Assembly: GCF_003287285.1 (NCBI RefSeq)
Contig: NZ_QMIG01000003.1
Location: 248,001 to 312,000, forward strand
Length of the DNA: 64,000 nt
Direction of reading: 5' to 3'
Source: Phytoactinopolyspora halophila
GTDB lineage: Bacteria; Actinomycetota; Actinomycetes; Jiangellales; Jiangellaceae
Numbering within the stretch: position 1 is the first letter of the stretch; every line of letters begins with the position of its first letter. Position numbers and translations under genes: made by a program. The notes under the pieces are model-generated. The model was given only the letters and a program-made list of their open reading frames with translations, ran no database searches and was not told where the DNA came from. Positions 2,294 through 54,573 of this stretch are shown here, piece by piece.

Positions 2294-2975
2294 CGGCGCT
2301 CGGGTCGGTGGACGTGAGCGCCGCCTGGCTGGGCACCGCGCGGCTCTCTCCGGGCTCGCTTTCGACGTCCTCGGCCTCCGGGAGGTAATCCGCCAGCGGC
2401 GGAAGCTCGTCGAGCGAGTTCATCCCCATCCGTTCCAGGAAGAACGATGTGGTGCGGTAGAGGATCGCGCCCGACTCGTGATCGACGCCGCCCTCTTCGA
2501 CCAGGCCACGTGTGGTCAGCGTGCGCATCACGCCGTCACAGTTGACGCCCCGCACCGCCGAGACGCGGGCCCGGCTGACGGGCTGCCGGTACGCGACGAT
2601 CGCCAACGTTTCCAGGGCCGCCTGGGTCAGTTTCGCCTGCTGCCCGTCCCGGATGAATCGCTCCACCAGCGCCGCGCAGTCCGGATGGGTGTAAAAGCGC
2701 CACCCACCGGCCACCGACCGCAGGTCGAACCCGCGCCCGGCGTCCGCATACTCCTGAGCCAGCGCCTGAAGTGCCGCCTCGACCTCAGCGCGCGGGGTCT
2801 CCAGGACCTGAGCGAGGGTGACCTCGTCGATCGGCTCGTCGGCCACCATGAGGATCGCCTCGAGTGACGCGTGCAAGCCCGGCTCGCCCTGCTCGCCATG
2901 TTGGCGGTGCTCGCCGTGTTCGCCACCGTCCCGGCCGTCCACATGTGGCTGGCCGTTCGGCTGCTCACTGCTCAC
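2286..2975 (-). CDS. scpB: Segregation and condensation protein B
   Basis: ScpB is the winged-helix kleisin partner of the SMC condensin complex. The 229-residue protein has a hydrophilic, His/Glu/Gly-rich N-terminal tail (about residues 10-33), then two winged-helix domains; ALETLAIVAYRQPVSRARVSAVRGVNCDGV is the characteristic segment and TTSFFLERMGM follows. The start is a GTG that overlaps the scpA stop (GTGA), so the two are translationally coupled. The acidic C-terminus is common in actinobacterial homologues. Confidence 0.94.
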   Translation of the reverse strand: MSSEQPNGQPHVDGRDGGEHGEHRQHGEQGEPGLHASLEAILMVADEPIDEVTLAQVLETPRAEVEAALQALAQEYADAGRGFDLRSVAGGWRFYTHPDCAALVERFIRDGQQAKLTQAALETLAIVAYRQPVSRARVSAVRGVNCDGVMRTLTTRGLVEEGGVDHESGAILYRTTSFFLERMGMNSLDELPPLADYLPEAEDVESEPGESRAVPSQAALTSTDPSADE

Positions 2976-3844
2976 TCGTTCTCCCCCACCAGCTCTGGTT
3001 CGTCGAACTCGTCACTCACCCCGACCGGAGTGTCGTCATCGTCGTCGCCGATCCACCGGATAGTCAGCTCGCCCAGCGGATTCACCTGTTCGAACGCCAC
3101 CACGCGCTCACGGTACAGCTCCAGCAAGGCGAGGAAGCGTGCCACCACGTGCGTCGTGGACGGGCAGTCCGCAGCCAACGCCCGGAAGGTGACCTGACGC
3201 GCCGCGCGCAGCCAGTCGACCACCACACTGGCCTGCTCGCGCACGCTTACCCGGGGCTCGTGCAAGTGCGCCATCCCGACCTTCGGTTCCGGGCGCGGAG
3301 CGAGCACCTTGCCGGCGAGCTGGGCCAATTCGTGGGGACCGAGCCCGACCACCACTTCCGGCAAGAGATTCGCATACCGCTCTTCGAGACCGACCGCACG
3401 TGGGAAGCGCAGCGCTTCCGCCGCCATCCGGTCCGCGAAGACACCGGACAGCTCCTTGAACGCCTTGTACTGCAACAGGCGAGCGAAGAGCAGGTCGCGG
3501 GCCTCCAACAGCGCCAGATCTTCCTCGTCCTCGACTTCGCCGCTGGGCAGCAGTCGGGCCGCCTTGAGATCGAGCAGCGTGGCCGCCACGAGCAGGAACT
3601 GGCTTGCCTCGTCCAGATCCCACTCCGCAGCCCGGATGTAATCGATGAACTCGTCCGTGACCTGCGACAGCGCCAGCTCGGTGACATCCAGCTTGTGCTT
3701 GGAGATCAGGGTGAGCAGGAGGTCGAACGGCCCCTCGAAATTGTCGAGGTGGACCGTGAACCCCTCGCCGTCGTGCTCGCCCTCGGCGCCGGACCCCGCA
3801 TCGTCGACGTCGAACAGCAGCTCGGGCTCGGTGTCGCTGGTCAC
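2972..3844 (-). CDS. scpA: Segregation and condensation protein A (kleisin)
   Basis: ScpA bridges the SMC heads together with ScpB. The 290-residue protein shows the N-terminal kleisin motif FEGPFDLLLTLISKHKLDVTEL and the C-terminal winged helix (LLELYRERVVAFEQ). The frame stays open to 4159, but the correct start is the GTG at 3844, which overlaps the parA stop in a GTGA and lies just before the conserved N-terminus; the upstream part is parA read out of frame. Highly acidic ends (DDDDDTP, EFDEPELVGENE). Confidence 0.94.
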   Translation of the reverse strand: MTSDTEPELLFDVDDAGSGAEGEHDGEGFTVHLDNFEGPFDLLLTLISKHKLDVTELALSQVTDEFIDYIRAAEWDLDEASQFLLVAATLLDLKAARLLPSGEVEDEEDLALLEARDLLFARLLQYKAFKELSGVFADRMAAEALRFPRAVGLEERYANLLPEVVVGLGPHELAQLAGKVLAPRPEPKVGMAHLHEPRVSVREQASVVVDWLRAARQVTFRALAADCPSTTHVVARFLALLELYRERVVAFEQVNPLGELTIRWIGDDDDDTPVGVSDEFDEPELVGENE

Positions 3845-4767
3845 GGCCAACGAGCCAGCACCTCCCTGGCGAGCTGCTGGTACGCCCGGGCACCGGGAGA
3901 TGTCGGGGCGAACGTGGTGATCGGCAAACCGGCGACCGTCGTCTCCGGGAAGCGGACGGTGCGGCCGACAACAGTGTGGAACACGCGATCGTCGAATCCT
4001 TCGATCAGCCGGTTGAGCACCTCCCGGCCGTGCACGGTCCGGGCGTCGTACATCGTCGCCAGCAGGCCCTCGATGGTCAGCTTCGGGTTGAGACGGTCGC
4101 GGACCTTCTCGATGGTCTCCTGCAGCAAGGCCACGCCGCGCAACGCGAAGTACTCGCACTCCAAAGGAATGATCACACCATCCGAGGCGCTCAGCGCGTT
4201 GACCGTCAGCAGCCCGAGCGAGGGCTGGCAGTCGATGAGGATCACGTCGTAATGCGCGACGAACGGCTGCAGCACGCGTGCCAGCGCCTGCTCCCGGCCC
4301 ACTTCGGTGACCAGCTGAATCTCCGCCGCGGACAGATCGATGTTGGCCGGCAGCAGATCCATCCCGTTGATCGGTGTCTTCTGCATGATATCGGCGGCAT
4401 CGAGCGAGCCGTCCATCAGCACGTTGTAGATCGACAGGTCCAGATCATGCGCGTCCAGGCCCAAGCCGACCGACAGCGCACCCTGCGGATCGAAATCGAC
4501 CAGCAGGACCCGCCGGCCATAGTCGGCCAAGGCGGCACCGAGATTGATGGTGCTGGTGGTCTTGCCGACGCCACCCTTCTGGTTGCACATGGCCACGATC
4601 CGCGCCGGACCATGCTTCTGGACGGGGCCTGGCGGCGGGAATTCGACACGCGGACGCTGGGTCGGGCCAAGGTCGAACTCTTCATCCTCGGCCGAAGCAT
4701 CCGAGGCGGCGCCGACGCCTTCGAGCGGAAGCACACCGCCCGAAGCGTCTCGGGTCGACGATGCCAC
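3841..4767 (-). CDS. parA: ParA/Soj-family chromosome partitioning ATPase
   Basis: ParA-type deviant Walker ATPase thought to act in chromosome segregation with the condensin genes downstream. After an acidic, probably disordered N-terminus of about 55 residues comes the Walker box KGGVGKTT (64-71) with its signature Lys, then LLVDFDPQGALS and VILIDCQPSLG. The start is GTG, with GGAG about eleven bases upstream. This is the orphan ParA that accompanies scpAB in actinobacteria, distinct from the parAB pair at the origin, which is not in this window. Confidence 0.92.
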   Translation of the reverse strand: MASSTRDASGGVLPLEGVGAASDASAEDEEFDLGPTQRPRVEFPPPGPVQKHGPARIVAMCNQKGGVGKTTSTINLGAALADYGRRVLLVDFDPQGALSVGLGLDAHDLDLSIYNVLMDGSLDAADIMQKTPINGMDLLPANIDLSAAEIQLVTEVGREQALARVLQPFVAHYDVILIDCQPSLGLLTVNALSASDGVIIPLECEYFALRGVALLQETIEKVRDRLNPKLTIEGLLATMYDARTVHGREVLNRLIEGFDDRVFHTVVGRTVRFPETTVAGLPITTFAPTSPGARAYQQLAREVLARWP

Positions 4768-4899
4768 GGCTTTCAGAGCTCCTCCGTGTGATGGTCATAC
4801 GGTCTCAGAGTGAGCCTACTCGCTGTGTCCACCTGTGCACGGTAGACGCCCCGCGGGAAATTCCAGATCATTTTCGGCGGCTGCGCCACGCCCGCGTGG

Positions 4900-4943
4900 T
4901 CGTCGACGATCGTGCACATGTCCATGGAGGCGATCGTTGACGA
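4900..4943 (-). terminator. Hairpin downstream of the marR gene
   Basis: TCGTCGACGATCG (4900-4912) pairs with CGATCGTTGACGA (4931-4943) with one mismatch across an 18-base loop. It lies 44 bases beyond the stop of the minus-strand MarR gene. No T-tract is visible, so termination is inferred from position. Confidence 0.45.
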
Positions 4944-4986
4944 TCAGTCATGGGATGCGCCAACGCCACACCTGCCAGGGCTGGCG

Positions 4987-5466
4987 TCAGTCGTTCGTGG
5001 CGGCACCGCGCAGGTGGGCGATGACCTTTTCGGCGCCGTCACCGAGTGCGTCGAGCTGCTCCGGGGTGAGCAGGTCGATGAAATTCCGGCGTACGGACTC
5101 CACGTGCCTGGGAGCGGCCTCGTCCATGAGGCGCAGGCCCTCCGCGGTGAGCACGGCATCGATGGCGCGCGAGTCCTCGGGATGCTTCTCGCACTCCTCG
5201 CGTCGTACCAGCCCGCGCCGCTGCATCCGGCTGAGCTGGTGCGAGAGCCGGCTTTTCGACCACAGCGTCCGACGCGCGAGCTCGATCAGACGCATCCGGT
5301 GGCCCGGCGCTTCGGAGAGCACGGTGAGGACGGTGTAGTCGGCGTCGGACAGCCCGCTCTCCTGGTTCAGGTCGCGGGCGATCTGCAGATCCAGAAGATC
5401 GCGCATCTGCCGGTAGCCACGCCACGCCCGCGCCTCACGCTCGTCGAGCCATCGCGGTTCATCCAT
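4987..5466 (-). CDS. MarR-family transcriptional regulator
   Basis: A 159-residue winged-helix regulator. The core LSDADYTVLTVLSEAPGHRMRLIELARRTLWSKSRLSHQLSRMQRRGLV carries the recognition helix, followed by the wing (REECEKHPEDSRAIDAVLTAEG). It is transcribed away from an FMN reductase gene, and the 87 bases between them carry two copies of a dyad, GTTGAC-N2-GTCAAC and GTTGAC-N2-ATCAAC. It probably represses itself and the reductase/oxidoreductase pair, with relief by an electrophile, oxidant or phenolic ligand; the ligand cannot be inferred from sequence. Confidence 0.9.
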   Translation of the reverse strand: MDEPRWLDEREARAWRGYRQMRDLLDLQIARDLNQESGLSDADYTVLTVLSEAPGHRMRLIELARRTLWSKSRLSHQLSRMQRRGLVRREECEKHPEDSRAIDAVLTAEGLRLMDEAAPRHVESVRRNFIDLLTPEQLDALGDGAEKVIAHLRGAATND

Positions 5467-5490
5467 GAGGTGTCACTGTAATCCGGCCGG

Positions 5491-5538
5491 GTTGACGTGT
5501 CAACTCAACGCTCCTAGGCTTTGAGTTGACACATCAAC
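5491..5538. promoter_or_regulatory. Paired MarR operators
   Basis: GTTGACGTGTCAAC at 5491-5504 has perfect 6-base arms and a 2-base centre; GTTGACACATCAAC at 5525-5538 has one arm mismatch. Their centres are 34 bases apart. They sit in the divergent marR / FMN reductase intergenic region and the TTGAC core could double as a -35 box, so a bound repressor would block both promoters. Confidence 0.7.
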
Positions 5539-5553
5539 CCGCAAGGAGGCGTC

Positions 5554-6120
5554 ATGCCACAGCTCGCCGTCATCGTCGCGAGTACCCGACCAGGCCGGGC
5601 CGGCCCGGCCATCGCCGACTGGTTCCTCGCCCGGGCCAAGGACCACGGCGAACTCGACGCCGGCCTCGTCGACCTCGCCGAGGTGAACCTGCCGTTCCTC
5701 GACGAGCCCGAGCACCCGTCACGGGGCCACTACCTGCACCCGCACACCAGGCGATGGAGCGCGATCGTCGCATCGACGGACGCGTTCGCGCTGGTCCTGC
5801 CCGAATACAACGGCGGCCTGCCAGCGCCGTTGAAGAACGCACTGGACTTCCTCTACGAGGAATGGGCGCACAAACCGGTCGGGCTCGTCAGCTACGGCAT
5901 GGGATCGGCCGGCAAGCACGCGGCTGGCATGGCCGAGCAGGTCGTCACGGCGTTGCGCATGCGGCCGGCACCGACGAGGGTGGCCGTTCCGCTGCGAGAA
6001 TGTTTCGGCGGCGAGGCGGTGCACCCGAACGAGGCCATGGAGTCCGCAGCCCACGGCATGCTCGACGAACTCACGTCGATGACCGGGGCGACACGCGAGG
6101 AAGGCAGTGGTGTCCGATGA
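5554..6120 (+). CDS. NADPH-dependent FMN reductase
   Basis: A 188-residue flavodoxin-fold quinone/azo-type reductase. The phosphate loop is VASTRPGRAGPA (residues 8-19), and LVLPEYNGGLPAPLKNALDFLYEEW is the flavin/dimer motif of the NADPH-dependent FMN reductase family. AAGGAGG lies seven bases upstream of the ATG. The last codons overlap the next gene (ATGA), so the two are coupled. With the MarR gene and operators upstream this looks like an inducible quinone- or electrophile-detoxifying unit. The substrate is inferred, not seen. Confidence 0.88.
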   Translation: MPQLAVIVASTRPGRAGPAIADWFLARAKDHGELDAGLVDLAEVNLPFLDEPEHPSRGHYLHPHTRRWSAIVASTDAFALVLPEYNGGLPAPLKNALDFLYEEWAHKPVGLVSYGMGSAGKHAAGMAEQVVTALRMRPAPTRVAVPLRECFGGEAVHPNEAMESAAHGMLDELTSMTGATREEGSGVR

Positions 6121-7025
6121 AAGCGGTGGTCTTCGACCGGCACGGAACGCCGGACGAGCTGCATCTCGCTGATATGGAGCGGCCGCATCCCGGACCCGGA
6201 GAGGTCCGAGTCCGGGTGCGCGCCGCGGGGATCCAACCCTTCGACGTCGGAGTCCGCGGCGGATCGCTCCCGTTCCCGGTGACGTTCCCCCAACAGCTCG
6301 GCAACGAGTTCTCCGGGGTGGTGGACCGCGTCGGCGACGATGCCGGCGAGTGGGCCGCGGGTGACGAGGTGCTCGGATGGGCATTCATGAGATCCCTCGC
6401 CGAGTACGTGGTCACCGGCGCGGACTCGATCGTGAGCAAGCCCCCGGACATGCCGTGGGACGTCGCCGGCGGGCTGTCCTCGTCGGGCGCGACCGCGTAC
6501 ACCGCGCTGCGCGTGCTCGACATCCGTCCGCGTGACACGCTGCTCGTCCACGCCGCGGCCGGCGGGACGGGAACGATCGCCACCCAGCTCGCCCGCGCGT
6601 GGGGTGCCAGCGTCATCGGCACGGCCAGTGAGGCCAACCACGCGTATCTGGCGCAGCTGGGCGCGACGCCGGTCTCGTACGGCGACGGCCTGGTCGAACG
6701 GGTGCGTGCCGTGGCACCCGACGGCGTGGATGCCGCACTCGATGCCGTGGGCGGGCAGGCGCTGCACGATTCTGTCGACCTCGTCCGGGACAAGAACCGG
6801 ATCGCCACGCTCGTCGACCACGAGCTGGCCGACGAGCTCGGTGTCGTCGGGGTGCGTGCGCAGCGTGTTCCCGAACAGCTCGGCGACCTCGTCTCCCTAT
6901 ACCAGCGGGGTGCGCTGCGCATGCCGATCCGGGAACGATTCCCCCTGGCCGCGATCGCCGATGCGCATCGCCTCGTGGAGACCGGGCACGGCCGGGGAAA
7001 GGTCGTCGTTACGCTCGATGATTGA
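6117..7025 (+). CDS. NADP-dependent quinone-oxidoreductase-like enzyme (MDR superfamily)
   Basis: A 302-residue medium-chain dehydrogenase/reductase without structural zinc cysteines. It opens with a GroES-like domain (GEVRVRVRAAGIQPFDVGVR), then a Rossmann domain with the AAAGGTGTIATQLARAWGA loop and a C-terminal GKVVV. This is the pattern of zeta-crystallin-like quinone or enone reductases. The ATG overlaps the FMN reductase stop by four bases. Together they would reduce quinones or unsaturated carbonyls under MarR control. A longer frame upstream is only the antisense-frame reading of the reductase gene. Confidence 0.88.
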   Translation: MKAVVFDRHGTPDELHLADMERPHPGPGEVRVRVRAAGIQPFDVGVRGGSLPFPVTFPQQLGNEFSGVVDRVGDDAGEWAAGDEVLGWAFMRSLAEYVVTGADSIVSKPPDMPWDVAGGLSSSGATAYTALRVLDIRPRDTLLVHAAAGGTGTIATQLARAWGASVIGTASEANHAYLAQLGATPVSYGDGLVERVRAVAPDGVDAALDAVGGQALHDSVDLVRDKNRIATLVDHELADELGVVGVRAQRVPEQLGDLVSLYQRGALRMPIRERFPLAAIADAHRLVETGHGRGKVVVTLDD

Positions 7026-44257: not shown

Positions 44258-44325
44258 ACTTCGATGGCCAGACGTGCACGAAAACGCCGTTCAGCCGCAA
44301 TTAGCGCATGTTTGAGCATCGAAGT
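44258..44325 (-). repeat. Dispersed hairpin, family B, copy 4
   Basis: ACTTCGAT...ATCGAAGT with outer stem GCACTTCGATG/CATCGAAGT; the middle has ACGTGCACGAAAACG as in copy 3 (ACGTGCGCCAAAACG). It lies 44 bases past the stop of the minus-strand reductase-like gene and between convergent genes. Confidence 0.75.
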
Positions 44326-44368
44326 CGGACCTGCCCGGCCGTCTGATGGCGAGTGCGGATTCCGGATC

Positions 44369-45007
44369 TCACCCGACGACGCGGTACTTGATATGCGTGA
44401 CGCCCGGAGCGTCGATGGCGCGTACCTGTTCCACCTCGAGGCCGTCCACGTTCTCGAACAGGCGCTCGCCGCCGCCGAGCAGAACCGGCGTGACGTGCAG
44501 CTCGAACTCGTCGACCAAGCCTGCCGCGAGGTACTGCTGGACGACGTTGGCGCCGCCGGCCAGCGAGACGTCCTTGTCACCTGCGGCGTCGCGTGCCTGC
44601 GCGAGCGCCGACTCGATCCCGTCGGTGACGAAGTGGAACGTGGTGCCACCCTCCATCGTGAGCGGCTCCCGAGGATAGTGCGTGAGGACGAACACCGGAG
44701 CGTGGAAGGGAGGGTTGTCGCCCCACCAGCCCGTCCACGGTTCCTCTCCCCACGGGCCCGGGCCTCCCCCGAACATGTTCCGGCCCATCACGACGGCCCC
44801 CACGTTCGCCTGCGCCTCCTCGACCACGGGAGTGCTGGCGTTCACCGTGCCGCCCTCCAGGCCCTGTGCCCGGCGCCACGCCTCCAGTCCGAAAACCCAC
44901 TGGTGCAGGCGCATACCGCCCACGCCGATCGGGTTCCGCTCGCTTTGCTCCGGTCCCGCGACGTACCCGTCCAGCGAGATGGCCAGCTGGAACCTGAACT
45001 TTCCCAT
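44369..45007 (-). CDS. Dihydrofolate-reductase-family protein (RibD C-terminal domain)
   Basis: A 212-residue RibD_C/DHFR-like protein: QLAISLDGYVAG near the start, VVMGRNMFGGG, VFVLTHYPREPL, VSLAGGANVVQQYLAAGLVDEFELHVTPVLLGGGERLF. These stand-alone members bind NADPH and are called deaminase/reductases, though the substrate is unknown. GGAG precedes the ATG. Single gene, downstream of the giant protease gene on the same strand with a 158-base gap. Confidence 0.88.
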   Translation of the reverse strand: MGKFRFQLAISLDGYVAGPEQSERNPIGVGGMRLHQWVFGLEAWRRAQGLEGGTVNASTPVVEEAQANVGAVVMGRNMFGGGPGPWGEEPWTGWWGDNPPFHAPVFVLTHYPREPLTMEGGTTFHFVTDGIESALAQARDAAGDKDVSLAGGANVVQQYLAAGLVDEFELHVTPVLLGGGERLFENVDGLEVEQVRAIDAPGVTHIKYRVVG

Positions 45008-45165
45008 CGAATCTCCTTCGCTCGGTCCGGTTCACCCGTCGACTCCCGCGTCGACGCTTCTTCCGCATCACCGGATACAGACCGGCCGAGTTCGCGAAAT
45101 TCATCGCGGGTGACAGCACGGCATTCCGAGCTCGATCGCCTCGCCGGCGGCAAGCACGCCACAGA

Positions 45166-48100
45166 TTACCCCGGCATCGTGATGTCCGGGCCGTCGAACT
45201 CCACGACCAGGCCGTCCACGTCCAGCTCCGCGCCCAGCGAGTAGTCGCCCCCCGGCAGGCCACTGAGCATGTACAGGTACCGGCCGAACACCCAGCGCAT
45301 GTCGTAGCGCTGCACCACGGCGCCCCCGCGGTCGCGGACCACCAGTACCCCGGACTCGGCGGGTGCCCCCGTCGGGGCGCCGTCCCGGTCCACTCCGTCC
45401 AGCTCCAGCATCACCGGCCGGGTCCGCCCGCTGCCGGCCACGTGCCACTCCGGTTTCCAGCCCGCGGCCCGGTGCTCGGCCGCGCCTGCCCATCGCACGG
45501 CGTTGACCAGCAACCGGGAACCGTCCTCGGTCCATCCAAGCCCGGGGCCGACGGTGTCGGTCACCGCGCTCGCCGACAGCACCACCTCGATGCTGCCCAC
45601 GGTGCGCCAGTCGTACCCGGCGGCCAGCCCGGTCACCGGGTCCTCGCCGTCGCGCTGCACCGACAGGTCCGCCAGCGGTTGCCCGGCGTAGGAGTCGAGC
45701 ACGCTGTAGTACCCGCCGTCGACGATCAGCCGGGCCGGGTCGGAGAGCCCGGCGAACAATTCGTGTTCGCCGCCGAACCCGGTCAGCTCGACCGGCCCGT
45801 CGCCGTAGCCGTGGGCGCCGACGTCGACGCGGTCCGTGTGGCGCTCCAGCAGCCGCACGCCTCCCCGGTCGGTGCCCCACGTCCCGGTGAACACCACGCT
45901 CACCTCCGCGTCGTCGGCGGCGGAGAGCATCGTGTCGAACGTCTCCCCGTCCGGTGAGCCGCCGTTGATGACGAGCACGTCATACCGGTCGAGCGTGCCG
46001 GCACTCTCCCACTCCCGATCCCACGCCACCGGAGCGGCCGCCTCCCCGGCTTCGCGCAGCAGGCCGATCACCGCGCCGTCGACGTCTCCCAGGACGCCCA
46101 CGTCGACGGGGCGCAGCTCGACGTCCAGGGTGGCCGGCTCCTCCGCCGTGATCGTGACCTCGGCCGTCGCCGGGAGGAACCCGTCGGCGGTGACGGTGAC
46201 CTCGTAGTCGCCCTCCAGCAGGTCGCCGGCGGCGTACGCGCCGGCGTCATCCGTGCGTGCCGACCAGTCCGACGTGCCCTCCGGGCCGGACCCCGCCAGC
46301 GCCGCTCCCGCCACCGGCTCGCCGTCCGCCGCGGAGGTCACCGTGCCGACGACCTCGCCGCGTGGCAGCGGTGCCAGCTCGACGTCCAGCGTCGTGGTGC
46401 CGGACTCCGGCACCTCCACGGTCCGTTCGGCCACCTCGAACCCGAACGCCTCGACCCGGATCGCGTGCGTCCCCGATGGCAGGCCCAGGACGTAGGTTCC
46501 ATCGTCGCCGGTGGTGGTGCTCGCGCCACCGTCCACGGCGGTGACCGTGGCGTCCGCCACCGGCTCGCCATCCGCCGTCACCACGCCGGCCACCTCGGCC
46601 TGGCGGGCCTCGACCGCCCACGCCACCGCATTGCGGTAGATGCGCTCCGCATCGGTGGTCCAGCCGTCGCCGGGACGGCCGTACGAGCTGGCCGCCAGCC
46701 CGGAGAGCAGGATCTCCACGCTGGACGGCGAGCTGAACCGGTACCCCACCGCCTCGCCGAGATCGTCGCCGTCGGTCTGCGAGCGCAGGTTCGCGATGGT
46801 GGTGCCGCTGTAGTCCGCGTACGACAGCCACTGCTGGTTACCGCCCGGATTGGTGATCAGCTCGATCGGCTCGCCAGCGGGGTAACCGGCGAAAATCGGG
46901 TGCCCGTCGCCGGAACCGGGCACGTACTCCACCGCCTCGGGGACGAACCCGTCGTCGACACTGGCCGGGTCCCCGCGATAGTCGGACAGCTCGCCGATCG
47001 AATAGCCGCCCCACTGGCCGGCGAACAGCACCGACACCTGGGCCTCCCCGGCGGCATCCACCACGGCTTCGAACCCCTCGCGGTGTGACGACAGGATGGT
47101 CCCGTTGAAGATGACCAGATCGACGTCACCGGCCTGCCCGAGGCGCGTGGCCAGCTCGCCGAGTCCGGAACCGGCGACCTGCTCCACGTCGTAGCCGTCC
47201 GCGTCGAGCAGCTCGGTCACCGAATCGCCGAGGTCACGAACCACCGCCACGGTACGCGATGACGTCAGGGCGACGTCCATCGCACGCGTCTCGCCCCCGG
47301 CCACATCGACCCGCTCCTCGTGGGCCTGATACCCGTCGGCGGTGACGCGCAGCGTCCACTCCCCCTCCGGCACGTCTTCGATGACGTAGCCACCCTCGTC
47401 GTCCGTGGTGGTGGACAGCGGCGTGCCGGAGAGCGCGACCTCGGCACCGGCCACCGCGTCGCCGTCCGGACCGGTCACCGTGCCGCTGACGGTGCCCATC
47501 GGCTGCGGCGCGAGCTCCACGATCGGACGGACGACCTCGCCTGCCTCGACGCTGACCGTGACCTCCTCGGTGACGTAGCCGAAGCTCGCCGCTTCGAGCG
47601 TCCACTCTCCGGGAGCCAGCGGGATGACGAAGCTGCCGTCGCCCTCGCGCGCCGGATACGTCTGTCCGGTTTCCGCCACGGTCACCTCGCCGCGCAGGGG
47701 CGTTCCGGCCGTGCTGCCCGGCTCGCCGACCAGCGTGCCCCGCACGTCGGCCCCGAGGTCCGCCCCGTCCAGGGCGTAGCCGAGCGCGTTGCGCAGCAGC
47801 CGTTCCGCGCCGGAAGTCCAGCTGTCACCAGCGACGTCGCCGTGGGCCGGGTAGCCGTACCTGCTGACCGACAGCGTCCCGAGCAGCACGTCGACCGCTC
47901 CCGCGCCCCGGTGGCGCACCCCGGCCAGCCCGCGCCCGTCCTCGTCGTCGCTGCTGACGGTCGCGACGGTGGTGCCGCTGAACCCGTCGAACCAGGAGTA
48001 CTCCGCGCCGTCCTCCACCAGCGGGAAGGATTCCTCCAGCCCGGCCAGCAGGGCGTGGCCGGGCTCGGCCGCATGGGCCGACACCTCACCATCGCTACGA

Positions 48101-51100
48101 CCCTGACCGGCGACGGCCGGGTCGCCGCCGTAGTCCGACAGGTACCGGAACGATCCCCGGCCGTACTGGTCCAACCAGAGCACCGGGACGCTGGCCCGGG
48201 TCGCCGCGTCGTCGAAGGCGGCCAGCCCGTCCGCGCCGGGATCGAGCCCCGGGTACGAACCCATGTTCGCCACGACGAGATCCAGATCGCCCACGCGGCC
48301 GGTGTCGTCCCAGCTCAGCGGTTCCGGCGTGTAGCCCCAGTACTCCAGGTACCCGGCGAGGCGCTCGTCATAGTCGTCGATGATCCCCACGATGGGCGAC
48401 GGCCGCAGCTCGACGTCGGCCGGTGCGACCTCGCCGGCAACGACGGTCACCGGCACCCGGGTACGCACGTGGCCCTCCGCCCGGATCTCCAGCTCGTACT
48501 CGCCGGGTTCCACCAGGTCGAGCGCATACGAGCCGTCCTCGTCGGTGGTGGCTTGCAGCGGGGTACCGAGCAGGGACACCAATGCCCCCTCGACCGGCTC
48601 GCCCCCCGCGAGCGGCCCGGTACCGATCTCGTCGCCGGCGGTCACCGTTCCGGACACGGATCCGGTATCGGCCGGTTCCAGCTGCACGTCCAGCGACGTC
48701 GCGGCGTTGCGCTCGACACTGACGGCGCGTTCGGCCACCGCGTAGCCGAACGCGGAGAACCGCAGCGTGTAGTCACCGGGCTCCAGCGCCACCACGTACG
48801 AGCCGTCGGCGTCCGTCTCGGCCCGCGCCCCGGTCTCCACCACCTCGACGGTGGCCGGCAGCGGGGTGCCATCGACCCCCACCACCGCGCCGTCGACGCT
48901 GCCCAGGCCGGGAGCTGCGGCCCAATCGATCGCGTTGAGGTAGAGCTGCCGCCCGTCATCGGTCCAGTCTTCGCCCGGTCCCTGGAAGAAGCTGGCCGCC
49001 ATGCCGCCCAGCAGCAGGTGCACGCTTCCCGGGGTGCGGGGAGTGTAGGCGGCTCCCACGCCCCGCGTGCCGCCCTCCTCGGTGACAAGGTCGGCCAGGG
49101 CGGTGCCCGAGTACTCGACGAGCGCGGCAGCGTACCGGTCCGCGCGCAGGATCTCCGGCCGGTCCGCGACACCCTCGAAGAGGGGGTGCTCCGGCACGCG
49201 CGGCGCGTAGCTGACGATCCCTTCCCGGCTGACCGGTTCGCTGCCCGCCGGATCCTCCAGGTATTCGCGCAACAGCCGCGCGCCGCCGTAGGAGCCGAAC
49301 CGGTCATCCGGGAAGATGCCGCTCACCTCGGCGGCGTCCATAGCGTCCAGGAAGTCGCGGAACCCGGCCTCGCCCGGGTCGTCGGGATCGTTGAAGACGA
49401 CGACGTCGAACTCGCCGACACGATCCACGTCACCCCAGCCGATGTCCTCGGCCGCGATCTCCGCCGCCGTGAGGACGTCGACGACGGGATCGCTCGCGTA
49501 GTCGCCGAGCACCCCGACCCGCGCGGCGGCGTCCAGCTCGACGTCGACGACGGTTTCCTCTCCTGCCTCGATCTCCACCTCGTCGCTCGCGCTGAGGTGG
49601 CCGCCGGCGCTGACCTCCAGCTCGTAGGTGCCGCCGGGGACGTCGTCGATCCGGTACGCGCCGGCATCGTCCGTTGTCGTTTCCAGATCCGCCCGGGGCA
49701 GCGAAACCCGCGCGCCCTCGATCGGTTCGCCGTCACGTGCGCTGGTGACGGTGCCGCTCAGCGCACCGGCTCCGGAGTCCGCGAGCTCGACGTCCACGGC
49801 GCGGGACTCCCCGGCTTGCACCGTCACGTCTTTCTCGACCGGTGTCGTGCCGACCCGGGAAAAGCGCAGCGTGTGCTCGCCGGGCGGCAGGAAGATCCGG
49901 TACGTGCCGTCGTCGGCCGTCATGACCGTTTCCCCGGTGGTCACGGCCTCGACCGTCGCCGCCAGCGGCTCGCCGCTCGCGGCCGTGACCGTGCCGCTTA
50001 CCTCGCCGAACTCGGCGTCCATGGCGTAGGACACCGCGTTGTCGACGACGGTCTCCGCTGCGGGCAGCCAGTCCGTCTCGGGATCACCCCACGACGCGGC
50101 CGCCGCCAGCGAGCCGAGCAGCACGTGCACGCCGTCGGTGCCGCGTGGTGCGTAGCCGATGCCGCCGCCGGTGACACCGTGGTCGTCCGTATGCAGCTCC
50201 GCGACCGTCGTGCCGGAGTAGCCGTCGAAGGCCGACCACGCGGTTCCCGGCACCAGGATCCCGGTGCGCTCCCCGGGAACGAGGCCCTCGGTCAGGGGGT
50301 GTTCGGCCGTGGCCACGAGCGACACCCGGCCCGCTCCCATGTGGTCGTCCGGGGCGGATTCGGGATCGCCCACGTGATCGATCAGGTGGTTGATCGCACC
50401 CCAGCCCAGCGACCACTGATCCAGCCAGACGACGCTGGTTCCGGCCGCGTCGGTGGCGTCGAGGAACTCGACGAACGTCTCCTGGCCCGGGTCGGTGTCC
50501 CGCGCGCCGTTGGCGACCACGGCGGAGAAGTCACCCGGGCGGGAAGCCACATCGGCGTAGCTGGTCGGTTCCGTCGCATACCCCAGGTCTTCAAGCACGG
50601 CACGGATCTTGCCGTCATGGTCACCCACCACCGCCACGTCATAGCGGGTCAGGGTCAGTTCCACCTGGGCGGTCTCCCCGGCGGTGACCTCCACCTCCTC
50701 GTGGACCGGGGCGTATCCGGTCAGCTCGGCCGTGAGCCCGTAGCTGCCGGCCGCGACCTCGCCGAAGCCGAAGGCGCCGTCGGCGTCCGTGCTCACCGGA
50801 TCGTGCGGCGCACCGCTGAGCGTGATCGTGGCATCCGGCACGGGCTCCCCGGCCTCGTCACGGACCACTCCGGTCACGCCGCCGTCGTCGACGGCCGCCA
50901 GCTCGGCGTCGACGGTCACGGTGCGGCCCGCCACCACGTCCACCGCCCTGCTCTCGCCGGTGAGCCCGTAGGCGGAGATCTCGACGGTGTACTCGCCGGG
51001 CGGGTGGGCGAGCTCGAAGTGGCCGCTCTCCGGGTCGGTCCGCACCTCGGGGCCGGTCTCGGTGACCGTCACTCTCGCCTCGATCGGACCGTCCGGGCCG

Positions 51101-54100
51101 GTGACCGTGCCCTCGATGGTTCCCGTGGGGTGGAAGGCGTAAAGGTTGCCCCGCGCGTCCGCCGTGACCAGCCGCCCGTCCGCGTAAGCCGCCGACGAGG
51201 TCACGTTGCCGCCGGTCTCGGCGTCCCACACCAGCTCGCCCGTGGCGGCGTCCAGCGCCCACACCCGGTGGTCCAGCTGCGAGCCACCCACCACGTAGCC
51301 GTCGTCGCTCACCATCACCGACGCGCTCACCACGCCCGAGACACCGTGATGCCAGACCGGCTCGCCGGTCTCGCGATCGTAGGCGACCACCGTGCCGCGC
51401 CCGTGCGAGCCGGCGATCACCAGATCGCCATAGACGGCCGGGGTGCTGCCCTGGCCATCGCCGTGCGAATCGGCCTCCCACAGCACCTGTCCCGTGTCCG
51501 CAGCGATCGCGAGCATGCTGCCGTCGCCGTCGCCGTCCGTCGTGGGGACGTAGACCGTGCCGTCGACGACGCTGGCGCCACCGATGAAGTAGTCGTCCTG
51601 GCGGGCCAGCGTCCAGACCCGCTCGCCGGTCTCCACATCGAGGGCGATCAGCTCGCCATCGTCAGCGTTGCCCACCACCGCCATACCGTCCCCGACCGCC
51701 GGACCGGCGAACACGGACGTGCCGACGTCGGCCGACCAGAGCTCCTCGCCGGTCTCGGCGTCGAGCGCGAGCACCGTATCCTCCCGGGCCTGCGTGGGAC
51801 CGGTCGCGGCATAGACCACGCCGCCGACGACGCTCGGTGCGGTGTAGACCGTGCGCCGGTCGGGTGTGGACACCGACCACAGCTCCGCGCCGGTCTGCGC
51901 ATCCAGGGCGTAGATGCCGCCGTCGAGCCCGCCTCCGGTGTAGACGGTGCCGCCGGTGCCGTCGCTGCCGCCGGTGCCGTCGCTGCCGTCGGTCACCGCG
52001 GGTGCGCCGCGCAGGGTGCCGCCCGCCTGGAAGGTCCACTGCCGCTCCCCCGTGCCGGCGTCGCGCGCGGCGAGCTGGCCGCCGTCCGAGCCGTGCACCA
52101 CCAGGCCGTCGGCGATGACCGGCGAGGCGAACACCACGTCGCTTCCGGCGTCCGCGGTCCAGCTCGGCTCCAGCGTGCCCGCGGCCAGGCTGTCACCGGA
52201 CAGGCCGCTGCGCGTGGCATTGTTCTGGTACTGGGCCCAGCCATCGGCACTGGGCTGGGTCAGCGGCTCCAGCGTGATCGCCAGCTCGGCGTCGCCGTCC
52301 ACGGTGACGTCCAGCTTGGCCGGTTCGTGCCCGGCCGCGGAAACCCGCAGCGAGTACGTCCCGGCCGCCACGTCCAGGGCGAACCGGCCATCGTCGCCAG
52401 TCCGCACCGGATCCAGCGGCGTGCCGGGCAGGCTGACACGCGCATGCGCGAGCGGCTCACCGTCGTCGACGCCGGTCACGATGCCCGAGAGCTCGTGTTC
52501 GGCCGCAACGTCGAGCTCGGCGTCGAGCGTGCTCGTCTCCCCGGTAGTGATGGTCACCCCGGCCGCGTGCTCGGCGTAGCCATACGCGCTGATGGTGACC
52601 GTGTGCTCCCCTTCGGGGACATCCAGCTCGTAGGCGCCGGTCTCGCCGTCGCTCTCGGTGCTGGCCGCCGCGGCGCCATCGCCGGCGGTGACCGTCGCCA
52701 CCAGCGGGCCGTCGGGACCGGTGACCGTGCCAGACAGCGTGCCCGAATGGGCGACGCGCGTGACCGCCGCGTGAGCGTCAACGATGCCGGCGCCGTAATC
52801 GTCGTCGGGGACCTCACCCATGTGCGGCTCCGCCCGGGCGGTGTCCTCAAGCTGCTCGCGGATCTCCTCGATGGTCAGCTCCGGCGCGGCAGAAAGCATG
52901 AGCGCGACGGCACCCGTGGCGTGCGGCGCGGCCATGGAAGTGCCCGAAATAGTGTGATAGCCGCCGTCGATCAAGTGCCGTGGCCAGGCCGAACGGATCC
53001 GGTATCCGGGAGCGCTGACCTGCGGCTTGCGGTATGTCTCGCCGTCCCAGACGGCCGGGCCACGGCTGGAGAAACCCACGACGAGATCGTTGACGTCCGT
53101 CGCCCCGATGCCGATGGCGTTCGGGAAGCTGGCCGGCGAGCCGACCGTGCCCGGTGCCGGGCCGTTGTTGCCGTTCGCGAACACCGGGACGATTCCCGCC
53201 GCCTCCCACGCGGCGACGTCGTCCCAGAACTCCGTGCTGGTGGTGGCATCCGAGCCCCACGAGTTGTTCACCACGTCCGGCGCGGCCCCGGGATCGCCGC
53301 CGGGAGCCAGCATCCACTGGAAACCGTCGTGAATGATGGACGCGGATGTGGAGCCGGAATCGCGGAAGATCTTCGCGGCGATCCACTCCGCGTCGGGGGC
53401 GACGCCGGTGAGCTCGCCCGGGGCGTCGCCAACGATGCTCCCGGCCACGTGCGTCCCGTGACCGCCGCCGTCGCCGGGCGTCGGGTAGTTCTCGCCGGTG
53501 GCCGCATGCCAGCTGGCCTCGGGGTCGCCGTCGGTGCCCCGCCAGGACGCGGCGAGCGCCGGATGCTCCCCGTCCACCCCGCCATCCATGATGCCGACCA
53601 CCACATCCTCGCCGCGCACGCCGTACTCGCCCCAGACGTCGGGCGCGTTCACCGACTCCAGACTCCAGCTCGGCAGGAGTGGCTCTCCGGGCTCGGGTTC
53701 GACCGGTTCGGGAAGGGTGATCTCCTCGTCGAGAGTGACACTGGCGACGTCGGGGTGCTCGGCGATCTCGCGTAACGCCTCGCCGTCGACGGCGGCGGCG
53801 AAACCATTGAAGATCCAGAACGACGTGACGCCGTCCGCGCGTCCCCCGGCCTCGTGTTCATCGAGGAGCTGGCGCACACCGTCTTGGCCGGCGTCGGCCG
53901 TCTCCTGTAACTCCTCGACTACCGTGCGGGCGCGGGCCTCCTGCGCCCGTTCCGCGACGGCGTTCAGGTCCTCGCTGGTGACGGCGTCGTCGCGGGTGCC
54001 GTCGCTCGCGTCGTCGCGGGTGTTGTTGCTGGTGTCGTCGGCGATGTCGCCACTGGTGCCGTCGCTGATGTCGCGGTCCGCACGGGCGCGGGCGGCCGCG

Positions 54101-54573
54101 TCGTCGGCGGCGTCCGCCGCTTGCTCGGCCAGGGCACGCATGTCGACCTGATCGCGCAGCCGGATGATGACATCCGCCGTGCCATCGGCGTCGAGGGTCT
54201 CGTGAACCTCGTCATCCACGCCTGTTGGTACGTCAGATGTCCCCGCAGGGAGATCCTCGGCTCGCGACGCGCCCAAGGTGTCCGGCTCGATCGGGAGGCC
54301 GGTGGTCAGGTCGTGGGCGTCGCTCGCCTCACTCGCATCCGCCTCACTCGCATCCGCCTCACCCGAATTCGCCTCACTCGCATTCGTGTCGCCGCTGGTG
54401 TCGCTGGTATCGGGCGTCTCGTCCGTTCGCGTCGTCTGGTCAGCGCTGGTGAGCCGCGCCGCGGGTGGGTCGGCCGCTGCGGGAGCGGTCGTGGCTGCTA
54501 CGAGCGTGACGCCGAGGAACACGGCCGCGATGCGGTGAGCGGCCGTGCGGGCAGGAAAGAAACGCGTGACCAT
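45166..54573 (-). CDS. Giant secreted S8 (subtilisin-like) protease with propeller and five repeated modules
   Basis: About 3135 residues. Order: signal peptide (1-35); acidic repeat tail; I9-like propeptide with inserted Asp/Thr-rich linker (to about 270); S8 domain about 300-575 with catalytic Asp (GIMDGGVDG, near 328), His (GGHGTHVAG, near 372) and Ser (SGTSMAAPH, near 544); two carboxypeptidase-regulatory-like beta domains; a PQQ-type propeller (about 780-1150, repeats ending ALDAETGEELW); then five copies of a Rossmann-like module (near 1310, 1685, 2060, 2435, 2820), each joined by regulatory-like beta domains. ATG 54573 follows GGAGG; a GTG at 54594 is weaker. Extracellular; substrate unknown. 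Confidence 0.88.
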   Translation of the reverse strand: MVTRFFPARTAAHRIAAVFLGVTLVAATTAPAAADPPAARLTSADQTTRTDETPDTSDTSGDTNASEANSGEADASEADASEASDAHDLTTGLPIEPDTLGASRAEDLPAGTSDVPTGVDDEVHETLDADGTADVIIRLRDQVDMRALAEQAADAADDAAARARADRDISDGTSGDIADDTSNNTRDDASDGTRDDAVTSEDLNAVAERAQEARARTVVEELQETADAGQDGVRQLLDEHEAGGRADGVTSFWIFNGFAAAVDGEALREIAEHPDVASVTLDEEITLPEPVEPEPGEPLLPSWSLESVNAPDVWGEYGVRGEDVVVGIMDGGVDGEHPALAASWRGTDGDPEASWHAATGENYPTPGDGGGHGTHVAGSIVGDAPGELTGVAPDAEWIAAKIFRDSGSTSASIIHDGFQWMLAPGGDPGAAPDVVNNSWGSDATTSTEFWDDVAAWEAAGIVPVFANGNNGPAPGTVGSPASFPNAIGIGATDVNDLVVGFSSRGPAVWDGETYRKPQVSAPGYRIRSAWPRHLIDGGYHTISGTSMAAPHATGAVALMLSAAPELTIEEIREQLEDTARAEPHMGEVPDDDYGAGIVDAHAAVTRVAHSGTLSGTVTGPDGPLVATVTAGDGAAAASTESDGETGAYELDVPEGEHTVTISAYGYAEHAAGVTITTGETSTLDAELDVAAEHELSGIVTGVDDGEPLAHARVSLPGTPLDPVRTGDDGRFALDVAAGTYSLRVSAAGHEPAKLDVTVDGDAELAITLEPLTQPSADGWAQYQNNATRSGLSGDSLAAGTLEPSWTADAGSDVVFASPVIADGLVVHGSDGGQLAARDAGTGERQWTFQAGGTLRGAPAVTDGSDGTGGSDGTGGTVYTGGGLDGGIYALDAQTGAELWSVSTPDRRTVYTAPSVVGGVVYAATGPTQAREDTVLALDAETGEELWSADVGTSVFAGPAVGDGMAVVGNADDGELIALDVETGERVWTLARQDDYFIGGASVVDGTVYVPTTDGDGDGSMLAIAADTGQVLWEADSHGDGQGSTPAVYGDLVIAGSHGRGTVVAYDRETGEPVWHHGVSGVVSASVMVSDDGYVVGGSQLDHRVWALDAATGELVWDAETGGNVTSSAAYADGRLVTADARGNLYAFHPTGTIEGTVTGPDGPIEARVTVTETGPEVRTDPESGHFELAHPPGEYTVEISAYGLTGESRAVDVVAGRTVTVDAELAAVDDGGVTGVVRDEAGEPVPDATITLSGAPHDPVSTDADGAFGFGEVAAGSYGLTAELTGYAPVHEEVEVTAGETAQVELTLTRYDVAVVGDHDGKIRAVLEDLGYATEPTSYADVASRPGDFSAVVANGARDTDPGQETFVEFLDATDAAGTSVVWLDQWSLGWGAINHLIDHVGDPESAPDDHMGAGRVSLVATAEHPLTEGLVPGERTGILVPGTAWSAFDGYSGTTVAELHTDDHGVTGGGIGYAPRGTDGVHVLLGSLAAAASWGDPETDWLPAAETVVDNAVSYAMDAEFGEVSGTVTAASGEPLAATVEAVTTGETVMTADDGTYRIFLPPGEHTLRFSRVGTTPVEKDVTVQAGESRAVDVELADSGAGALSGTVTSARDGEPIEGARVSLPRADLETTTDDAGAYRIDDVPGGTYELEVSAGGHLSASDEVEIEAGEETVVDVELDAAARVGVLGDYASDPVVDVLTAAEIAAEDIGWGDVDRVGEFDVVVFNDPDDPGEAGFRDFLDAMDAAEVSGIFPDDRFGSYGGARLLREYLEDPAGSEPVSREGIVSYAPRVPEHPLFEGVADRPEILRADRYAAALVEYSGTALADLVTEEGGTRGVGAAYTPRTPGSVHLLLGGMAASFFQGPGEDWTDDGRQLYLNAIDWAAAPGLGSVDGAVVGVDGTPLPATVEVVETGARAETDADGSYVVALEPGDYTLRFSAFGYAVAERAVSVERNAATSLDVQLEPADTGSVSGTVTAGDEIGTGPLAGGEPVEGALVSLLGTPLQATTDEDGSYALDLVEPGEYELEIRAEGHVRTRVPVTVVAGEVAPADVELRPSPIVGIIDDYDERLAGYLEYWGYTPEPLSWDDTGRVGDLDLVVANMGSYPGLDPGADGLAAFDDAATRASVPVLWLDQYGRGSFRYLSDYGGDPAVAGQGRSDGEVSAHAAEPGHALLAGLEESFPLVEDGAEYSWFDGFSGTTVATVSSDDEDGRGLAGVRHRGAGAVDVLLGTLSVSRYGYPAHGDVAGDSWTSGAERLLRNALGYALDGADLGADVRGTLVGEPGSTAGTPLRGEVTVAETGQTYPAREGDGSFVIPLAPGEWTLEAASFGYVTEEVTVSVEAGEVVRPIVELAPQPMGTVSGTVTGPDGDAVAGAEVALSGTPLSTTTDDEGGYVIEDVPEGEWTLRVTADGYQAHEERVDVAGGETRAMDVALTSSRTVAVVRDLGDSVTELLDADGYDVEQVAGSGLGELATRLGQAGDVDLVIFNGTILSSHREGFEAVVDAAGEAQVSVLFAGQWGGYSIGELSDYRGDPASVDDGFVPEAVEYVPGSGDGHPIFAGYPAGEPIELITNPGGNQQWLSYADYSGTTIANLRSQTDGDDLGEAVGYRFSSPSSVEILLSGLAASSYGRPGDGWTTDAERIYRNAVAWAVEARQAEVAGVVTADGEPVADATVTAVDGGASTTTGDDGTYVLGLPSGTHAIRVEAFGFEVAERTVEVPESGTTTLDVELAPLPRGEVVGTVTSAADGEPVAGAALAGSGPEGTSDWSARTDDAGAYAAGDLLEGDYEVTVTADGFLPATAEVTITAEEPATLDVELRPVDVGVLGDVDGAVIGLLREAGEAAAPVAWDREWESAGTLDRYDVLVINGGSPDGETFDTMLSAADDAEVSVVFTGTWGTDRGGVRLLERHTDRVDVGAHGYGDGPVELTGFGGEHELFAGLSDPARLIVDGGYYSVLDSYAGQPLADLSVQRDGEDPVTGLAAGYDWRTVGSIEVVLSASAVTDTVGPGLGWTEDGSRLLVNAVRWAGAAEHRAAGWKPEWHVAGSGRTRPVMLELDGVDRDGAPTGAPAESGVLVVRDRGGAVVQRYDMRWVFGRYLYMLSGLPGGDYSLGAELDVDGLVVEFDGPDITMPG
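54326..54385 (-). repeat. 15-base tandem repeat in the protease gene
   Basis: Four 15-base units based on GCCTCACTCGCATCC encode Asp/Glu-Ala-Ser-Glu-Ala-type repeats in the acidic tail after the signal peptide. The copy number could vary. Confidence 0.8.

Follow-up and report, generated by a model that had tools for sequence, protein, structure and literature searches.

A very large S8 protease of Phytoactinopolyspora halophila with five diverged modules of predicted amidotransferase/ThuA-like fold

A gene on the minus strand of a 64,000-nucleotide stretch of the Phytoactinopolyspora halophila genome (the window) encodes a predicted secreted S8 protease of 3135 aa, the C-terminal half of which carries five diverged copies of a module of about 210 residues. 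The module is an unregistered family with an already known fold, and structure prediction supports the assignment of this fold to the class I glutamine-amidotransferase (GATase)/ThuA-like type. The five-copy protease architecture is unusual, and no published work on such a protease was found in the literature. On analysis of the evidence, we lean slightly towards the view that the modules are position-specialised binding units which, as an array, target the S8 protease to its substrate or to a surface.

The open reading frame (P0001; 45166–54573) runs from an ATG at 54573 to a stop codon ending at 45166, and Jiangella orthologues of the product are 3102–3144 aa long. An earlier note, made from the letters of the window alone, had placed the gene correctly and left its strand unstated; the gene and all features of the protease given below lie on the minus strand. 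A likely signal peptide, recognised by inspection of the sequence by eye, spans aa 1–35 (MVTRFFPARTAAHRIAAVFLGVTLVAATTAPAAAD; 54469–54573). A weak Pfam match to an I9-type prodomain (aa 253–287) lies upstream of the Peptidase S8 catalytic domain (aa 321–596; 52786–53613), which was detected with 184.3 bits against a Pfam PF00082 cut-off of 21.8 (E 4e-54) and has its triad motifs intact, with Asp330 in DGGVDGEHP, His372 in GGGHGTHVAGS and Ser546 in GTSMAAPHATG. A BamB/PQQ-type beta-propeller at about aa 816–1164 (51082–52128) was revealed by matches to Pfam PF13360 and PF13570 and to BamB-type NCBIfam models, conforming with the claim of the note that protease and propeller precede the modules. 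Twelve stretches of the protein match CarboxypepD_reg in Pfam, and the Pfam scan recognised no cell anchor. The C-terminal tail (aa 3033–3135; 45169–45477) is without a Pfam match and was modelled as a low-confidence stretch (pLDDT below 50) followed by a small, mostly beta domain (pLDDT 60–84) in the second AlphaFold2 (AF2) model described below.

The modules M1 (aa 1310–1520; 50014–50646), M2 (aa 1683–1888; 48910–49527), M3 (aa 2059–2270; 47764–48399), M4 (aa 2439–2656; 46606–47259) and M5 (aa 2822–3032; 45478–46110), the last being the most diverged copy, follow each other with periods of 373, 376, 380 and 383 residues. A segment of about 200 residues recurring five times with a period of about 375 had been described from the sequence, and all those of its motifs that were checked were present. 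Across most or all of the module, all ten pairs of M1–M5 share 30–37% identity with BLAST E-values of 1e-14 to 1e-27, and the pairwise local alignment scores were z = 20–30 above shuffled sequence for every pair; the copies are clearly diverged, as had been noted, and clearly homologous. The closest pair is M1/M3 (37%, E 9e-27), both of which are clear homologues of M2. In the module alignment, D9, H114 and N198 (numbered as in M2) vary little or not at all, an LDxW-type motif recurs, the Trp preceding the last helix is invariant (W1502, W1870, W2252, W2638 and W3014 in M1 to M5) and the elbow loops are aromatic, with W1387 in M1 and W2521 in M4.

The linkers between the modules are repeats themselves, with 35–48% mutual identity, and consist of carboxypeptidase-regulatory-like domains: L12 (49528–50013) matched CarboxypepD_reg, PEGA and SdrD_B in Pfam, L23 (48400–48909) was assigned from Pfam and inter-linker similarity, L34 (47260–47763) has Pfam matches and a domain directly before M4 that is beta-rich in the AF2 model, and L45 (46111–46605) comprises two beta-rich domains according to Pfam and the AF2 model. 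The five-copy arrangement is not a chance product, since it is kept at 64–67% protein identity in nine Jiangella genomes.

An AF2 model of M2, for which 32 modules from the source genome, five Jiangella genomes and two single-module proteins were used as input, was obtained with a pLDDT of 93.1 and a pTM of 0.91. Its best structural match in VIA-align was ThuA-like 1T0B, with a Z of 18.3 and an rmsd of 2.8 over 191 of 206 residues. Next in rank came further ThuA-like and GATase1-like proteins at Z 13–16; many GATases were matched at Z 13–15, and Foldseek was concordant. A second AF2 model, covering aa 2359–3135 and based on 40 sequences (pLDDT 85.9, pTM 0.53), showed M4 and M5 with the same order of elements as M2 and with beta-rich domains in between; the pTM of 0.53 is consistent with a flexible order of domains. 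The earlier note had guessed at a class I GATase-like or ThuA-like fold, a guess that is supported by these models, in which M2, M4 and M5 are concordant rather than different in fold.

The note had also seen no conserved catalytic Cys in the modules and had considered a binding module on that ground; in fact, there is no Cys among all 3135 residues of the protein, which excludes Cys-type amidotransferase chemistry. Catalysis by the modules through a site without Cys, made up of the elbow Asp (LDQW) and conserved His residues, is very unlikely. It would fit the near-invariant D9, H114 and N198 and the repeated LDxW-type motif, as well as a His in the LLS[AS]HG segment of the single-module L027 (7213–7848, minus strand) and L035 (1495–2154, minus strand), which lies near the LGH/GGH of ThuA proteins from related genomes, but the elbow Asp is missing in M4 (AGQW) and M5 (TGTW), and the five-copy modules lack this His of the single-module proteins.

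Sequence searches did not place the modules in an annotated family with a known role; a match of this kind would have counted against the reading given in the note. Neither ThuA (PF06283) nor any other relevant Pfam family matched M1–M5 at E-values up to 10, and ThuA did not match any of 17 diverse modules at E-values up to 1. The Pfam and NCBIfam matches of these 17 modules were scattered and mutually inconsistent, the best having an E-value of 0.0019 (DUF6440, one member), and were rejected. A PDB sequence search with the five-module profile gave nothing credible (best E 0.6). In profile-profile comparison by hhalign with 16 ThuA sequences, one of them partial, nearly all from Jiangellaceae and the rest from one other genome, the modules were matched with probabilities of 75% and 63% (E 2.5e-5 and 7e-5, as calculated for a single comparison). 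Distant kinship of the modules with ThuA is therefore likely, with the sequence evidence falling short of proof.

Jiangellaceae are rich in very large ThuA-domain proteins, as seen from 5–13 ThuA matches per genome in G001, G004–G006 and G008–G012, many of them in frames of 1400–2200 aa. In the source genome itself, about 19 kb past the end of the window (G000:C39:331358-332434), a 1402-aa frame matches ThuA (PF06283) in two separate stretches, as if the match had been divided by an insertion, and the same split was seen in frames of about 1190–1390 aa in several relatives.

A tree of 52 modules grouped the copies by position: M1 to M5 were resolved as one clade each, containing the source copy and nine Jiangella copies, with a support of 100/98 for M2 and 100/100 for each of the others. 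Because this grouping by position spans two genera, the duplications are older than the genus split, with no homogenisation of the copies afterwards. The loop that follows the fourth parallel strand also differs between positions and reads WLDQWSLGW in M1, FPDDRF in M2, WLDQ[YF]GR in M3, AGQWGG in M4 and FTGTWG in M5. Judged by sequence order, it falls roughly at the site of the nucleophile in GATases. Across the six genomes compared, each position shows its motif unchanged or almost so. Separate clades together with a fixed elbow-loop motif at each position suggest that the modules have specialised.

Among ten orthologues, invariant residues make up 56% of the modules versus 42% of the linkers (Fisher p 5e-9), 75% of the S8 domain and 59% of the propeller. 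Being more conserved than the linkers, the modules are not mere spacers. An explanation in which they only raise the protease off the cell, their surface sites being irrelevant, would draw on the beads-on-a-string layout, the regular spacing and the pTM of the second model; we rate it as quite unlikely in view of the significantly higher conservation of the modules, the fixation of loop motifs by position across genera, and the lack of a recognised cell anchor in the five-module protein.

The five-copy protein was found in nine of 12 Jiangella genomes (G001, G006, G009, G015 and G017–G021), a genus of the same family as the source organism, and was absent from G011, G013 and G016; no other genus of the family was found to have it among those searched. 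The orthologues share the 64–67% identity with the source protein over 2816–3021 aligned residues. G020 has an additional, separate S8 protease of 1283 aa with one module. Beyond the family, when up to 396 genomes from the whole phylum were sampled, a full module turned up only in G171, a member of another class; it sits there in an S8 protease of 1892 aa that has cell-wall-binding CWB2 repeats. Weak matches in G204, G225, G182, G205, G023 and G287 were partial or unrelated, that in G023 overlapping a ThuA-family protein, and G258, with a short partial match (profile 91–143), was not counted as a member.

A translated search of plasmids revealed the module in the haloarchaea Haloarcula, Halomicrococcus, Halocatena, Natrialba, Natrononativus and Natronococcus. 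All haloarchaeal module proteins examined have an S8 domain; six are annotated accordingly, and in two annotated only as carboxypeptidase-regulatory the domain was confirmed by Pfam. At L060 of Halocatena marina (2382–6856), the annotated gene of the S8 protease overlaps that of a carboxypeptidase-regulatory-like protein, and the pair looks like a single long protein broken up by a frameshift.

A search for the module alone in other proteins, as had been suggested, thus returned single copies that were always within S8 proteases, and no full-length module outside an S8 protease was found in the genomes and plasmids searched. Module-bearing S8 proteases mostly also have CarboxypepD_reg, CARDB, dockerin or CWB2 domains. 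The exclusive co-occurrence with S8 proteases would be expected if the modules acted on the protease itself, inhibiting it intramolecularly or gating its substrates. We hold this to be extremely unlikely, given that the modules lie about 700–2400 residues from the protease, past the propeller, and that a prodomain, weakly matched to the I9 type, already precedes the S8 domain.

The protein is very acidic, with 543 Asp + Glu versus 153 Lys + Arg and a Lys content of 0.2%. Strongly acidic composition is common in salt-adapted proteins. With haloarchaea sharing the module and the protein being acidic, a halophile-associated exchange of the module is plausible.

The neighbouring genes code for an amidohydrolase, a cupin, an SDR, a dehydrogenase, a GntR/FCD regulator, a TctC/TctA transporter and an enolase-type enzyme, and the neighbourhood holds no hint of carbohydrate or cell-wall functions. 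As none of these genes was found within about 4–6 kb of the Jiangella orthologues, they probably do not belong to the system. Immediately downstream, the protease gene is followed by a gene for a RibD C-terminal-type reductase (44372–45007, minus strand; E 2e-19); a plus-strand frame overlapping it (44264–45244) has no Pfam match and is probably not a gene. Inside the protease gene, an antisense open frame of 2151 aa extends over 47320–53775 (plus strand), and the Jiangella loci contain two further open frames of more than 3000 aa. The long antisense frame most likely reflects high G+C codon use rather than a gene.

The targeting function towards which we lean would operate as follows. The C-terminal half would be a flexible string of five non-catalytic modules, spaced by the carboxypeptidase-regulatory-like domains. 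In each module, the old active-site end of the parallel sheet would provide a putative site for a surface polymer, with a polysaccharide, the glycan of a glycoprotein or a similar compound as candidate ligand. By virtue of their differing, fixed site loops, the five positions may each recognise another portion of a complex substrate, and the array may retain the protease at its target in the way that arrays of carbohydrate-binding modules (CBMs) do for glycoside hydrolases. Polymer binding is inferred because two structural neighbours, 8AA2_G and the CBM87 of Agd3, are non-catalytic domains with experimentally demonstrated binding of polysaccharide. The targeting reading also draws on the homology and fold of the copies, the absence of Cys, the stronger conservation of modules than of linkers, the position-specific clades and loops, and the occurrence of all full-length matches in S8 proteases. 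Against binding stands that the fold alone does not give function, as it is shared by catalytic amidotransferases and a glycosidase accessory domain. Furthermore, the idea that conservation is concentrated along the sheet's active-site edge was not supported, the difference in the share of invariant residues being non-significant (65% versus 57%, p 0.28), and the gene neighbourhood, as described above, does not point to carbohydrates or cell walls.

GH42 beta-galactosidases possess a non-catalytic GATase-like domain with a role in oligomerisation or protein–protein contact. As GH42 enzymes are among the structural neighbours of the M2 model (5XB7, Z 13.9; 6LVW, Z 13.2; 5E9A, Z 12.9) and some relatives have dockerin, CARDB or CWB2 attachment domains, the modules might instead be protein–protein or oligomerisation units that build protease multimers or attach the protease to a cell-surface partner. 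We consider this unlikely, since five diverged copies with position-specific loops exceed the needs of simple oligomerisation and the relatives use one copy.

Returning to the targeting array, a more far-reaching version, which we put forward tentatively and regard as doubtful, would see in it a multi-specific recognition array with five ligand specificities for a composite extracellular target, and in the module an unregistered family that has spread between haloarchaea and actinobacteria with S8 proteases. The domain family occurs in Archaea and Bacteria, here only in S8 proteases, and annotation pipelines that build on Pfam and NCBIfam miss the module. It may extend the small set of polymer-binding, non-catalytic ThuA-like domains to secreted proteases, and the array could account for how very large secreted proteases locate their substrate. 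The five diverged, individually conserved copies would represent a natural series for ligand change on one scaffold.

Among known systems, the modules resemble ThuA-like 1T0B in the superposition given above and, by eye, in a His-Pro segment near the middle of the domain and in the W-A at the end of the C-terminal helix, but differ from it in having an identity of 10–15% and in falling below detection by the Pfam ThuA model. Class I GATases share the overall fold (e.g., 2D7J, Z 14.9; 1I1Q_B, Z 14.2), whereas the modules lack the Cys nucleophile. The single-module S8 proteases of Haloarcula, Halocatena, Natrialba and Halomicrococcus and those at L027 and L041 carry true sequence homologues of the module. 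These haloarchaeal and actinobacterial proteins differ in having one copy each instead of a five-copy array, often combined with CARDB, dockerin, NosD or CWB2 domains, and in the absence of a propeller match. A similar non-catalytic, Rossmann-like N-terminal domain is known from NDST1 (PMC10864358), to which the M2 model aligned with a Z of 12.8. The C-terminal domain of a levan surface glycan-binding protein from Bacteroides (8AA2_G), reported to be ThuA-like by DALI and to bind levan (PMC7618045), belongs to a lipoprotein of a glycan uptake complex rather than to a protease and is present in a single copy, but resembles the modules (Z 14.7) in being non-catalytic, surface-exposed and placed after Ig-like domains. 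In Agd3, the N-terminal domain is devoid of the Cys-His-Glu triad and binds exopolysaccharide via D242, W292 and W344 (PMC7229062). The distance of W344 to where the aligned range ends, 18 residues, equals that of W188 in M2, and the two Trp may be equivalent in position. This CBM87 (6NWZ, residues 147–362) occurs once, on a carbohydrate esterase, has galactosaminogalactan as its ligand and shows 9% structural identity with the M2 model, but like the modules it is a GATase-like, non-catalytic domain without the triad on a secreted enzyme (Z 13.7).
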